This document shows positions 11,226 through 14,573 of a stretch of DNA of 33,042 nucleotides, piece after piece. Within the stretch, counting starts at the first letter, position 1; each line of letters opens with the position of its first letter. Location: positions 1 to 33,042 of the forward strand of contig JAGCDF010000026.1 in assembly GCA_017651225.1 (NCBI GenBank), given 5' to 3'. Below the pieces are notes generated by a model. That model had not been told where the DNA came from, made no database searches, and saw nothing but the letters and a program-made list of their open reading frames with translations. Made by a program: the position numbers and the translations under genes. The stretch comes from Bacteroidales bacterium. GTDB taxonomy: Bacteria > Bacteroidota > Bacteroidia > Bacteroidales > UBA932.

Positions 11226-12551
11226 TTATACCGGTTCGGTGACGAGGAGGACGGGGGAGCTGTCGGCGAGGCGGCAGCCGAAGATGTGGACGTCGCCGCC
11301 GGACGCGACGCCGAGCCGCTTCTGGAGCTCTGCGCTGCCCAGCGGCAGGTTGCGGGCGGTGACGTCGGCGTGCGGGTAGCGCTGCTTCAGCGCCTTGAAC
11401 GCCGCGGCGCCCAGCGGCAGCACCTCCGCGATGCGCCAGGCCTTGAAGAATCGGCTGCCGGGGGCGCTGGGGGCTGTTTCCGCCCCTGGCGACGGGAAAA
11501 ACGGGTTGCCGGGGGCGCTGGGGGCTGTTTCCGCCCCTGGCAGGAGATAAAGGTGGGTGGAGGGGGCGAGTTTCTGGAGACCCCAGCGGGCGCAGGGGAG
11601 ACGGAAGGCGCCGGCCTTCAGCAGCGCCGGGCAGGGCTCCAGCAGCACGTCGCCCGGCCGGACCTCCGCCGCGAAACGGACCTCCGCCGCCCGCTCCTCG
11701 GCCATCCGGAAACGCAAAATATCCCCACCGGCTGCCTGGCCGGACAAGCGGACAACGAGGATGTCGGGTTCGGGGGAGGAGTTGTCCCGGAGGAGCAGAC
11801 AGAGGAGTTCTTTGACCTCGCCGTCGCACTCCACCACATGGATCTCGCGCAGCGCGGGCCCGAAGCGCTCGGCGAGCATCGCCAGGTCGGCCATCGGCGA
11901 GAGCTTGACCAGCACCGCCGGCGCCTTCCGGAGTAACATCGGGAGCAGCGTCAGGATGTCCGGGGTGCAGTCCTCCAGCAGGAAGACCTTACGCCCGGCG
12001 GCGTCGCGGCGCGCCGGATCGGCGTAGATCAGGTCCGCTTCCGGCAGCTCGGTCTGCGGCGTCACGGTCTCGCAGCGCACGTCGATATTTCCAGCGCCCA
12101 GGCGCTGGAAATTCCGCCCCGCCGCCGCGGCCAACTCCTCGTTCCGCTCGAAGTACACCACCCGCTCCGCCACCTGGCTCAGCGCCCAGCTGTCCACACC
12201 CAGCCCGCCGGTCAGGTCCAAAATCGTCGCCAGCGGCACGGAAGCGGGAACTGCCCCCGGAAACCGTGCCACCCTCGGCATCGTAAGAGGGAGGGGCCCA
12301 TCGTCAGATGGGAGGGGTCCGGCGCAGCCGGACGTTTCAGGGGGCAGTTGCCCGCTCCGTGCCGCAGCAGCCACCTGCCCGGCGACAAGTGCTTTGTAGC
12401 GGGCGGTGGCGGAGGATGAACATTGTTCGAGGGAGAGGGCGGAGGGGATTTCGATGCCGTCCACGGCGGACCAGGCGGGCAGCTTCCGCGCCACTTTCTG
12501 CGCCCGCTCGCTGTCCAGCCCGGCCATTATGTCCGCAAAACTCCGTTTCAT
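11226..12551 (-). CDS. Class I SAM methyltransferase with THUMP-like domain
   Basis: A 441-residue protein of a family typical of Bacteroidetes. Its N-terminal signature (RKLPAWSAVDGIEIPSALSLEQCSSSATARYKA, residues 22-54) precedes a Rossmann methyltransferase with SAM motif I LDLTGGLGVD (111-120), the acidic YFERNEEL, and DLIYADPARRD, which resembles the nucleic-acid methyltransferase DPPY/DPAR site. The C-terminus (about 365-441) is the THUMP-like part. The substrate is unknown, probably RNA. Two stretches look foreign: residues about 66-104 (encoded by the structured element 12244-12355) and about 338-365 (a tandem GAETAPSAPG repeat encoded at 11457-11541). Both sit between recognisable blocks, so the core may still fold. 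The start at 12551 fits the family. Confidence 0.85.
   Translation of the reverse strand: MKRSFADIMAGLDSERAQKVARKLPAWSAVDGIEIPSALSLEQCSSSATARYKALVAGQVAAAARSGQLPPETSGCAGPLPSDDGPLPLTMPRVARFPGAVPASVPLATILDLTGGLGVDSWALSQVAERVVYFERNEELAAAAGRNFQRLGAGNIDVRCETVTPQTELPEADLIYADPARRDAAGRKVFLLEDCTPDILTLLPMLLRKAPAVLVKLSPMADLAMLAERFGPALREIHVVECDGEVKELLCLLLRDNSSPEPDILVVRLSGQAAGGDILRFRMAEERAAEVRFAAEVRPGDVLLEPCPALLKAGAFRLPCARWGLQKLAPSTHLYLLPGAETAPSAPGNPFFPSPGAETAPSAPGSRFFKAWRIAEVLPLGAAAFKALKQRYPHADVTARNLPLGSAELQKRLGVASGGDVHIFGCRLADSSPVLLVTEPV
11457..11541 (-). repeat. Two 34-base palindromic repeats, 51-base period, in frame in methyltransferase
   Basis: Copies at 11457-11490 and 11508-11541 are identical, start to end, with a 17-base spacer. 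Each contains GGGGC/GCCCC arms around ggaaaca on the sense strand and wider GCC/GGC ends. They encode GAETAPSAPG twice, adding about 28 residues between the block APSTHLYLL and GSRFFKAW. Confidence 0.8.
12244..12355 (-). repeat. 112-base structured palindromic element, in frame in methyltransferase
   Basis: An outer inverted repeat (12244-12264 with 12334-12355) pairs at 20 of 21 positions with one bulged base. Inside it are two perfect hairpins, CCCATC/GATGGG (12297-12302 with 12307-12312) and GTCCGGC/GCCGGAC (12317-12323 with 12327-12333), and a weaker one, CCCTC/GAGGG (12272-12276 with 12287-12291). It encodes the Pro-rich stretch 66-104 of the methyltransferase. Its shape is MITE-like, but no target duplication was confirmed. 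Confidence 0.75.
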
Positions 12552-12585: not shown

Positions 12586-12593
12586 TATATTTG
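12586..12593 (+). promoter_or_regulatory. -7 box pointing into the hairpin array
   Basis: TATATTTG is a perfect TAnnTTTG match on the plus strand, 30 bases before the first array unit. Transcription from here would cross the four hairpins and reach phosphoglucomutase about 310 bases on. No other good plus-strand box was found closer to that gene. A minus-strand match (TATCTTTG, 12877-12884) faces it from the far side. Confidence 0.4.
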
Positions 12594-12623
12594 ACCTGTT
12601 CCACCCGAACCGCAGCCGGGCCG

Positions 12624-12805
12624 GTACACGAAAACCGCCAGATTTGTGTACGGATGGCTGAAAATCCGGGGTCCGTCCACAAATACACCCCTTTTTGTGT
12701 ACGGCCGACGGAAAAACCGGGGCTTCGTCCTCAAAAACACCCCGATTTGAGGACAAACAGTGGAAAAATGGACTTTTGTCCTCAAAAATGCCCTGTTTTG
12801 AGGAC
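12624..12805. repeat. Array of four 28-base hairpins at about 51-base spacing
   Basis: Units at 12624-12651, 12675-12702, 12727-12754 and 12778-12805, each 28 bases with 8-10 bp stems and 8- to 10-base loops; spacers are 23, 24 and 23 bases. The stem sequences change in pairs: units 3 and 4 have GTCCTC/GAGGAC, while unit 1 has GTACAC/GTGTAC and unit 2 is mixed (GTCCAC/GTGTAC). The first two spacers share a core (GGCTGAAAATCCGGGG, GACGGAAAAACCGGGG), and the third has a weaker form. I do not recognise the element. Confidence 0.8.
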
Positions 12806-12908
12806 GGGTCGGGCGGACAAACGAACGGCGTAGACAAGCGGGCAAATTGGAAATAGAACGTTAGATTGATAAATAGCAAAGATAAAACAAACAAAACCAG
12901 ATAACCAC

Positions 12909-14573
12909 ATGAAAGAATTTGAACTGAGAGCACAGGCCTGGCTCGACGGCGATTTCGACCAGGAGACCAAAATCAAGATTACCCAGCTCCGCAACGAAGA
13001 CCCCGCGGGCTTCGAGGACGCCTTCTACAAGAACCTCGAATTCGGCACCGGCGGCCTGCGCGGCATCATGGGCGTGGGCACCAACCGTATGAACCGCTAC
13101 ACGGTGGGCATGGCCACCCAGGGCCTCGCGAACTACATCCTGACCCACTGCGACCAGGACGACCCGAAGGTCGTCATCTCCTACGACTCCCGCAACAACA
13201 GTAAGGAGTTCGCCCGCATCACGGCCGACGTCCTGTCCGCCAACGGCATCCACGTCTACATCTTCGACAACATCCGCCCGACGCCCGAAATGAGCTACGC
13301 GGTGCGGCTGAAGGGCGCCGTGGCCGGCGTGATGATCACCGCCTCCCACAACCCGAAAGAATACAACGGCTACAAGGTGAGCTGGTCCGACGGCGGCCAG
13401 GTGACCTCCCCGGTCGACAAGGACATCGTGGCCGAAGTGGCCAAGATCACCGACCCGTCGATGGTCAAGTTCAAGGCCGGCCTGCGCTGCGGCGAGATCG
13501 AAGCGATCGGCGCCGACGTGGACGAACAGTACCTCCGCGACCTGCTCTCCCTGAGCCTCAGCCCGGAGCTCTGCGAAAAGCACGGCGACCTCAAGATCGT
13601 CTACACCCCGCTGCACGGCTGTGGCGTGCGCATGATCCCCGAGATCCTCAAGCGCAAAGGCTTCAAGAACATCATCCACGTCCCCGACCAGGACGTCTCC
13701 GACGGCGACTTCCCGACGGTCGTCTCCCCGAACCCCGAAGAGCCCGCGGCCCTCAAGATGGCCCTCGACAAGGCTGACGAGACGGGCGCCGACCTCGTGA
13801 TGGGCTCCGACCCGGACGCCGACCGCCTCGGCATCGCCGTGCGCGATAACGACGGCAAGATGGTGCTCTTCAACGGCAACCAGACGGCCGCCATGCTGAC
13901 CTACTACATCCTCAACCGCTGGAAGGATCTGGGCAAACTCGGCGCCGGCAAGTACGTCGTCAAGACCATCGTCACCACCGAGCTCATCGCCGACATCTGC
14001 AAGGGCTTCGACGTGCCGGTGTACAACGTCCTCACGGGCTTCAAGTACATCGCCGAGGTCGTCAAGCGCGAAGAGGCGAAGGGCGGCGAATTCATCTGCG
14101 GCGGCGAAGAGAGCTACGGCTTCAACGTGGGCATGTTCGTCCGCGACAAGGACGCGCAGGTGGCCGCGATGATGGTGGCCGAGTGCGCCGCTTGGGCCAA
14201 GGAGCAGGGCCTCTCGCTCTACCAGCTGATGCAGCGCATCTACAAGGAGTTCGGCTACCGCAAGGAAGGCCTCGTGTCCGTGGTCCGCAAGGGCATCAGC
14301 GGTGCCCGCGAGATCCAGCAGATGATGGTGGACCTGCGCAGCAACCCGCCCAAGGAGCTCTGCGGCTCGCCCGTCACGAAAGTCATTGACTATCTGGAGC
14401 CTGAGAAGACCGGCCAGCCGTCCTCGAACGTGCTGCAGTTCTTCGACAAGGCCGGCGACGTCGTGTCCGTCCGTCCGTCCGGCACCGAGCCGAAGATCAA
14501 GTTCTACTTCGGCGCCAAGGGCAATGACGCGGACGAGAAGATCGCCGCGTTGAAGCACCAGTTCTGCGAGTAG
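12909..14573 (+). CDS. Phosphoglucomutase/phosphomannomutase (alpha-D-phosphohexomutase)
   Basis: A 554-residue cytosolic enzyme interconverting hexose 1- and 6-phosphates, linking glycolysis with sugar-nucleotide synthesis. All four family signatures are present: phosphoserine loop ITASHNPKEYNGYK with Ser146, metal-binding DPDADR (D301, D303, D305), sugar-binding GEESYGF (E400-S402), and phosphate-binding RPSGTEPK (522-529). The N-terminal FGTGGLRGIMGVGTNRMN also matches the long PgcA-type mutases; length is normal. It is a single gene whose stop is directly followed by the stop of the convergent nth gene. Its promoter may lie beyond the hairpin array, which would place those hairpins in the 5' leader. 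Confidence 0.95.
   Translation: MKEFELRAQAWLDGDFDQETKIKITQLRNEDPAGFEDAFYKNLEFGTGGLRGIMGVGTNRMNRYTVGMATQGLANYILTHCDQDDPKVVISYDSRNNSKEFARITADVLSANGIHVYIFDNIRPTPEMSYAVRLKGAVAGVMITASHNPKEYNGYKVSWSDGGQVTSPVDKDIVAEVAKITDPSMVKFKAGLRCGEIEAIGADVDEQYLRDLLSLSLSPELCEKHGDLKIVYTPLHGCGVRMIPEILKRKGFKNIIHVPDQDVSDGDFPTVVSPNPEEPAALKMALDKADETGADLVMGSDPDADRLGIAVRDNDGKMVLFNGNQTAAMLTYYILNRWKDLGKLGAGKYVVKTIVTTELIADICKGFDVPVYNVLTGFKYIAEVVKREEAKGGEFICGGEESYGFNVGMFVRDKDAQVAAMMVAECAAWAKEQGLSLYQLMQRIYKEFGYRKEGLVSVVRKGISGAREIQQMMVDLRSNPPKELCGSPVTKVIDYLEPEKTGQPSSNVLQFFDKAGDVVSVRPSGTEPKIKFYFGAKGNDADEKIAALKHQFCE

Follow-up and report, generated by a model that had tools for sequence, protein, structure and literature searches.

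The locus raises the question of why four similar hairpins, whose stem bases differ from unit to unit, should stand in a row in front of a gene of central metabolism. The analysed stretch of 33,042 nucleotides (the window) carries these four 32-base hairpins at 12622-12807, between a gene for phosphoglucomutase/phosphomannomutase (PGM, 554 aa, plus strand, 12909..14573) and a divergent gene on the minus strand (11226..12551) whose 441-aa product has THUMP-like and PG_1098 ferredoxin-like domains. The initial annotation described four dyads spaced 51, 52 and 51 bases apart, and exactly this spacing was found. Each unit has an 8-bp stem, an A/T-rich inner 4 bp and an 8-nt loop, and the units form two pairs, neither with an assigned strand. 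Pair A (units 1 and 2, 12622..12704, hairpins 12622-12653 and 12673-12704) has stem class GTACAC, with unit 2 mixed, and an orthologous pair in the relative RUG11407; Pair B (units 3 and 4, 12725..12807, hairpins 12725-12756 and 12776-12807) has stem class GTCCTC. The spacer of units 1/2 (12654..12672, plus strand) is similar in RUG11407, and that of units 3/4 (12757..12775, plus strand) contains the A-tract used to set orientation. The proposal that the spacers resemble one another and that the 51-base block is the real unit was borne out, as was the observation that stem bases differ in pairs between units, although unit 2 is intermediate (left arm GTCCAC, right arm GTGTAC) and the outer stem pairs are imperfect, with 7, 7, 7 and 6 Watson-Crick pairs of 8 in units 1-4. 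Folds of single units as DNA are modest, unit 1 on the plus strand folding no better than shuffles (40/200 as good), and pairs of units folded as DNA gave one long hairpin in 3/5 cases and two hairpins in 2/5.

The placement of the array in the PGM leader had been argued from a -7 box at 12586. The promoter-like box TATATTTG (12586..12593, plus strand), which we take to fit the Bacteroidetes -7 box consensus, is kept in the relatives RUG11407, G123 and G081, and since the array lies between this box and the PGM start, it would be transcribed with PGM as part of the untranslated leader; in that conditional form the placement stands. As RNA, the leader folds at -101.3 kcal/mol (z -3.85, 0/100 dinucleotide shuffles as good), and Rfam gave no match at the gathering score within the window.

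Comparison of the PGM locus among relatives shows how recent the array is likely to be. PGM is 95% identical in RUG11407, the nearest relative found, 92% in G123 and 88% in G081, and the distance between the start codons of PGM and the divergent gene is 357 bp here, 868 bp in RUG11407, 82 bp in G123 and 81 bp in G081. In the RUG11407 leader there are three stem blocks, which together make seven units: two GTACAC-like, two GTGCGC and three GTCCTC-like. Purine-rich repeats come after them. No array was found in the same intergenic region of G123 and G081. The absence in these two genomes, together with the block differences from RUG11407, indicates that the leader array is young and changes by stem-class blocks; the number of units differs by whole units between close relatives. 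The purine-rich tandem repeat of RUG11407 has a 79-bp period (L249:3353-3584) and was not seen in the PGM leader of the present genome. When the PGM loci of 16 relatives were scanned with the covariance model described below, four had matches. In RUG11407 the match lies in the leader, in G123 within the THUMP-like gene, and in both G107 and G054 about 0.4 kb past the 3' end of PGM (L259:1054-1109 and L262:3433-3539, respectively).

The units are not confined to this leader. BLAST of the array region against its own genome returned 15 further rows, in which some places appear twice, once per strand. Eight of these rows start at query base 125-129 and stop at 205-209, covering units 3-4 from one end to the other, and the best match of these units (E=1.9e-14) is beyond chance. 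The check proposed earlier, a search with a paired-stem covariance model, was carried out with a model built from 35 units (31 from this genome), and the units do recur: at least 56 distinct ones at E<=0.001, at 26 places of a genome that is 78.7% complete, the number being a lower bound because 150 of 357 candidates were scored. The gap between neighbouring units is exactly 51 bp in 19 of 30 cases; four gaps are 42 bp instead (G000:C12, C47, C6, C72). Surroundings differ among the 11 loci examined of the 26 places, and in a set of six two-unit copies (four from this genome and two from relatives, L039 being left out) the hairpins had a mean majority fraction of 0.82 and 0.81, compared with 0.66 for the spacer and 0.44-0.52 for the bases outside. 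Model matches were present in 80/121 genus genomes at E<=0.1, where some weak ones are chance and the E-values of the model are rough.

Units also occur in coding frames, 51 bp being equal to 17 codons. Three of them lie within a 434-aa open frame on contig C75 (L007:1428-1578), in a region that looks linker-like by eye. In the window itself, the THUMP-like gene contains in-gene unit 1 (11458..11489, stem CCGGGGGC/GCCCCTGG), which has the same architecture as the array units and is read in frame, and in-gene unit 2 (11509..11540) at a distance of 51 bp, both without an assigned strand. The THUMP-like protein of G081 is without the segment that holds both units; G123 has the segment, and model R1 matches the corresponding part of its gene. 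Inside the same gene, at about 12250-12350 of the window, there is a second element of about 100 bp with inverted ends, the core of which recurs in RUG11407 (L249), G081 (L251) and L271, and in G123 its ends, by eye, differ yet stay complementary. Another palindrome, a CGTC-type REP (repetitive extragenic palindrome; CGTCATTCGCCGG...CCGGCGAAT), is dispersed in this genome too (L005:468-495, L007:1391-1417, L008:1390-1417, L096:2460-2487), and in L007 and L008 it directly adjoins 51-bp arrays.

A transposase-like subfamily accompanies the arrays; it was found only via a sub-threshold match between two arrays. Its member in this genome is a gene of 322 aa (L004:555-1523, corresponding to G000:C66:4494-5462) with arrays on both sides (C66:3671-3826 and C66:5425-5582) that have the stem GTCCTC/ATCCTC. 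The protein has an HUH motif (NHIH) and a tyrosine motif (YVNRNG) with 58 residues from H65 to Y123, and M62, H65, H67, R118, Y123, N127 and D249 are invariant in 65 aligned sequences. No Pfam or NCBIfam model matched it at E<=0.01; the best NCBIfam match was REP-associated tyrosine transposase (E=0.083), and PF01797 scored 12.4 bits. Within the family there are weak matches to RAYT, IS200 and PF01797 models: REP_Tyr_transpos matches 10/65 relatives (best 2.8e-4) and PF01797 7/65 (best 1.1e-5), both at E<=0.01. There is also a weak match to transposase structures, e.g., 2xm3 (E=0.007), which we take to be the ISDra2 protein, and profile-profile comparison gave a match, at a probability of 99.8%, to a group of genus proteins the first of which exceeds the PF01797 cut-off; this alignment covers the HUH region and not the tyrosine motif. 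These weak model, structure and profile matches support a putative, distant Y1 transposase family, and the combination of HUH and a single tyrosine resembles the REP-associated tyrosine transposases (RAYTs), of which the protein would be a divergent relative with predicted catalysis.

Relatives of the protein at E<=0.001, distant ones included, occur in 104/121 genus genomes. A scan of named genomes gave 217 relatives, and the titles of the best 80 of these, which were kept, are those of uncultured Bacteroidales/Bacteroidia, many from ruminants, with one Rikenellaceae and one Bacteroidaceae title among them. The 30 best loci of the subfamily had a model match at E<=0.05 in 18 cases. A link to the best PF01797 proteins of the genus was tried and dropped, as 0/20 of their loci had a model match. 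In this genome a further reading frame (L002:1678-2481, on G000:C66) separates the transposase-like gene from its upstream array, and neither Pfam (E<=0.01) nor NCBIfam (E<=1) gave a match to it; its RUG11407 counterpart (L169:1911-2504, 197 aa) overlaps the gene start by 4 bases, and the frame is possibly an accessory gene.

The association of arrays with these genes was measured on the DNA itself, with the covariance model not used. The criterion, set after arrays had been seen, asked for 8-bp arms with at least 6 pairs each plus 13/16 in two, arms alike in at least 12/16, and a lag of 49-53. It was applied to 70 loci, namely the 30 best and 40 from further matches (31-43% identity), at least six of which (L137, L143, L155, L159, L160, L161) had already been seen near model matches. 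A 51-periodic hairpin pair lies within 1 kb of 60/70 genes, against a mean of 0.05/70 in 20 rounds of dinucleotide shuffling. Among controls, other Y1 loci had such a pair in 1/20, and pieces of the window in 2/16, which are the PGM-leader set and the in-gene set of the THUMP-like gene. In a later set of 60 loci, found by protein only and after dropping 20 of 80 that share gene DNA with the first set, 42/60 genes had a 51-periodic pair, compared with 2/99 far flanks, and in the lag spectrum of this set 63 flanks show a lag of 51, while each of the other lags between 35 and 79 is seen in five flanks at most. An array was not detectable at 10/70 and 18/60 genes.

The stem is particular to the gene. 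Arrays are present on both sides of 33/70 genes, and the best stem match between the two flanks of one gene is 8/8 in 26/33, while between genes this holds in 33/1056; in 10,000 permutations flank stem sharing was never as high (0/10000). Stem similarity also follows protein similarity (Mantel r=0.23, 60 loci, 0/2000 as high): where proteins are 80-100% identical, at least 7/8 stem bases are common in 0.83 of 6 pairs, and where they are 30-40% identical, in 0.15 of 1084 pairs. Units proper (span 32 only) number 262, from 60 of the 130 loci, and the majority stem six-mers of these 60 are of 33 kinds if register shifts and one-base variants are counted separately; the five genes of G096 have different stems. 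Two units are the commonest non-zero number in a flank (at 60 loci, 36 flanks upstream and 27 downstream), in a strict extraction that cannot count single units. When the spacers of one flank are compared, direct agreement is the better in 187 pairs and inverted agreement in 23. Of 30 loci, 27 were informative on the orientation of the flanking arrays, which was direct in 22 and inverted in 5; for the gene of this genome (L099) the flanks look inverted by model strand. The foot GT[AG]G is absent, with 5/306 readings against a background of 5/305, and CGTC within 6 nt 5' of the hairpin was likewise seen in 5/306.

Stem classes were then compared with genes across genomes, leaving out the flanks of G114 and G135. 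Perfect GTTCAC hairpins occur in 1/121 genomes (G119, 5 copies), the gene of which (L105) has a GTTCAC stem; TTGTTCC-type hairpins in 4/121 (G136 with 13, G100 with 9, G114 with 5 and G061 with 3 copies); and perfect GTCCTC hairpins in 5/121 (G000, the present genome, with 10, G120 with 2 and three genomes with 1 each). G119, G136, G100 and G000 have both a matching gene and copies away from it. All copies found in G061 (3) and G120 (2) lie at the gene itself, and G023 and G074 have a single GTCCTC copy each, while their examined genes have other stems. Strong model matches, at a chosen cut-off of 1e-4 on rounded E-values, are present in 61/104 genomes with a relative of the gene and 2/17 without one (Fisher p=0.0004), an association that is only supportive because the genomes are related and incomplete. 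The units extracted at 60 of the 130 transposase-like loci included none with the left arm GTACAC, GTGCGC or GGGGGC. A perfect GTACAC hairpin was present in 2/400 genomes, as a single copy in each: this one and G339, which by position is probably RUG11407. For the GTACAC class, neither the units of the loci nor the genus-wide stem search pointed to a cognate gene.

It remains to say what the paired stem changes mean, which had been attributed to selection on a folded structure or to strand-symmetric conversion. In the covariation set of 35 units, of which 31 belong to this genome, 83.8% of cells keep the named pairs. Shuffling the 3' letters lowers this to 77.1% (0/500 as high) and sliding the partner by 1-3 columns to 38-51%, and the covariation score is 0.267 vs 0.143 shuffled (0/500 as high). 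Two measures are weaker: pairs with a two-sided change (8 vs 6.2 shuffled, 47/500 as high) and further pair types (16 vs 13.2, 31/500 as high). The paired differences are real, but they are not visibly compensatory at fixed sites. When the homologous array was checked for paired changes, no orthologous unit in RUG11407 had both sides of a pair altered with the pairing preserved; changes are one-sided, and in unit 2 one pair is altered on both sides and unpaired in both genomes. Between the two orthologous PGM arrays, whole stem classes are gained or lost as blocks. Selection on an RNA strand was also sought through an excess of G-U over A-C, and none was found: among the 262 units beside transposase-like genes, G-T and A-C mismatches number 70 and 63 (p=0.60), in a count that took upstream flanks as inverted, whereas most turned out direct, and with both flanks on one strand the upstream counts (39, 36) swap to give 67 G-T and 66 A-C, which is balanced too. 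In the 35 model units A-C is commoner than G-T (21 vs 12). Because the mismatches are balanced, they give no pointer to selection on one RNA strand. Given gene-specific stems and the relation of stem to protein similarity, the simplest reading is that the covariation best fits distinct REP-like classes, each tied to its own transposase, placed side by side.

The closest known systems are REP/BIME elements with their RAYT (TnpA_REP) proteins, or REPtrons, which are described as short dispersed palindromes, with an HUH/single-tyrosine gene flanked by palindromes particular to each gene, in which stem and protein co-vary (PMC2817692, PMC6006769, PMC8266576); all of this is matched here. In some gene-bearing genomes (G119, G136, G100 and G000) the matching stem is also abundant, with G023 and G074 as exceptions. 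Unlike the REPtrons so described, the present arrays have no GT[AG]G foot, their dyads stand at a fixed 51-bp period, their flanks are mostly direct where known RAYT genes are reported with inverted REPs, and the protein is about 310 aa, with a Y[IV]NRN[GA]-type motif in many members, and mostly below family cut-offs. RAYT subclass 2.6 (group 5) is alike in being from Bacteroidetes and in its reported "atypical secondary structures" without GT[AG]G and with copies elsewhere in the genome (PMC6006769); the same source gives it a median of 179 aa, an HUH-Y distance of 82 aa and the motif YIH[QN]NP, in contrast to 322 aa, 58 residues and YVNRNG here. As in REPINs, REP doublets that form a hairpin, the homologous block here is often a pair of units; a REPIN is described as two inverted REPs with a highly diverse spacer (PMC8049555), whereas the spacer here is partly conserved and agrees better directly than inverted. 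CGTC-tagged REPs are likewise palindromic, dispersed and found in genes too, and are reported with an unpaired CGTC tag, an 8-9 bp stem, a 4-5 nt loop and no associated transposase (PMC3733652), whereas CGTC, where present here, is inside the stem, and the loop is of 8 nt within an A/T inner stem. The system would work like REP/RAYT, yet on two defining features, the foot and the flank orientation, it is non-canonical. The initial annotation knew no named element of this kind; this holds insofar as those two marks of REP/RAYT are lacking, and does not hold insofar as the resemblance to REP/RAYT elements is evident. A search by title and abstract, outside the subscription literature, found no paper on such arrays in this group.

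We therefore consider it quite probable that two REP-like elements make up the array, each consisting of two dyads at a distance of 51 bp, and that they come from families spread by divergent RAYT-like HUH/Y1 proteins, so that of the candidates named earlier the "mobile satellite with dyad symmetry" came closest. For the GTCCTC/ATCCTC stem, the predicted protein is the one whose gene stands at another place of this genome, with arrays of that stem on either side. To hypothesize, each protein would recognise hairpins with its own stem, probably on folded single-stranded DNA, as known RAYTs do, and would cut and rejoin the DNA there; pairs of units may then be copied or moved in trans, and arrays would grow or shrink by units. 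We infer in this way that the units are mobilised, and that the GTACAC pair would stem from a second transposase now unseen. Any effect of the array on PGM expression would be secondary.

Three other explanations have to be weighed against this one. The array could be a cis-regulatory RNA, its repeated hairpins sensing a signal or controlling stability or translation of the PGM mRNA, and both its position, downstream of a conserved promoter-like box and ahead of the PGM start, and the better-than-shuffled fold of the leader would suit this; we nevertheless regard it as very unlikely, since the array is missing from this position in G123 and G081, has seven units in RUG11407, and has units at 26 places of the genome, with surroundings differing among the 11 examined, as well as inside coding frames, and since G-U is not in excess of A-C and no Rfam match was obtained. 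A regulatory RNA of PGM is accordingly not supported, and the idea of a conserved PGM leader RNA was given up. An array bound as double-stranded DNA by a nucleoid or replication factor, with the stems as half-sites and 51 bp as about five helical turns, is unlikely too, if slightly less so: many dyads are near perfect, the spacing is strictly 51 and the mismatches show no strand preference, but the stem differs between genes of one genome, e.g., the five genes of G096, and is usually common to both flanks of one transposase-like gene, which points to the product of that gene and not to a general factor. If a RAYT-like protein bound the duplex, this explanation would merge with the REP-like one.

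The least probable alternative, in our view highly unlikely, does without a transposase: tandem duplication and quasi-palindrome correction would shape the arrays, and the genes would merely sit in repeat-rich regions. Template switching is a known way to perfect palindromes, unit number differs by whole units between close relatives, and the mostly direct flanks look as if the gene had split one array. However, this would leave gene-specific stems and the stem-matched copies elsewhere in some genomes unexplained, and pairs are found in only 2/99 far flanks of the same genes and at 1/20 other Y1 loci.

If the reading as REP-like elements with RAYT-like proteins is extended to the whole genus, a broader picture is plausible, which we put forward tentatively and with less than even confidence. 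A large, apparently unclassified HUH/Y1 branch in gut Bacteroidales may have radiated together with tandem 51-bp dyads that have no classical guide sequence; the variable stem would carry the specificity, the fixed period would mean that several dyads are read together, and unit pairs would move as one element, which could enter genes in frame because one period is 17 codons. With specificity in the variable stem, the dozens of gene-array pairs would form a natural protein-to-hairpin code book. Few protein-hairpin pairs have had their REP recognition dissected, three of them in one study (PMC8266576). The present genus alone has dozens of related genes whose neighbouring arrays differ in stem, and G096 contributes five of these genes, which makes a protein-to-stem rule directly testable. 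The reading as REP-like elements also accounts for hairpins whose covariation could make them pass for a regulatory RNA in a search for structured RNAs, and it adds a central metabolic gene whose leader has an array in some close relatives and none in others. Elsewhere in the genus, other Y1 (PF01797) genes (L093, L082, L094) have their own, different palindromes on both sides.
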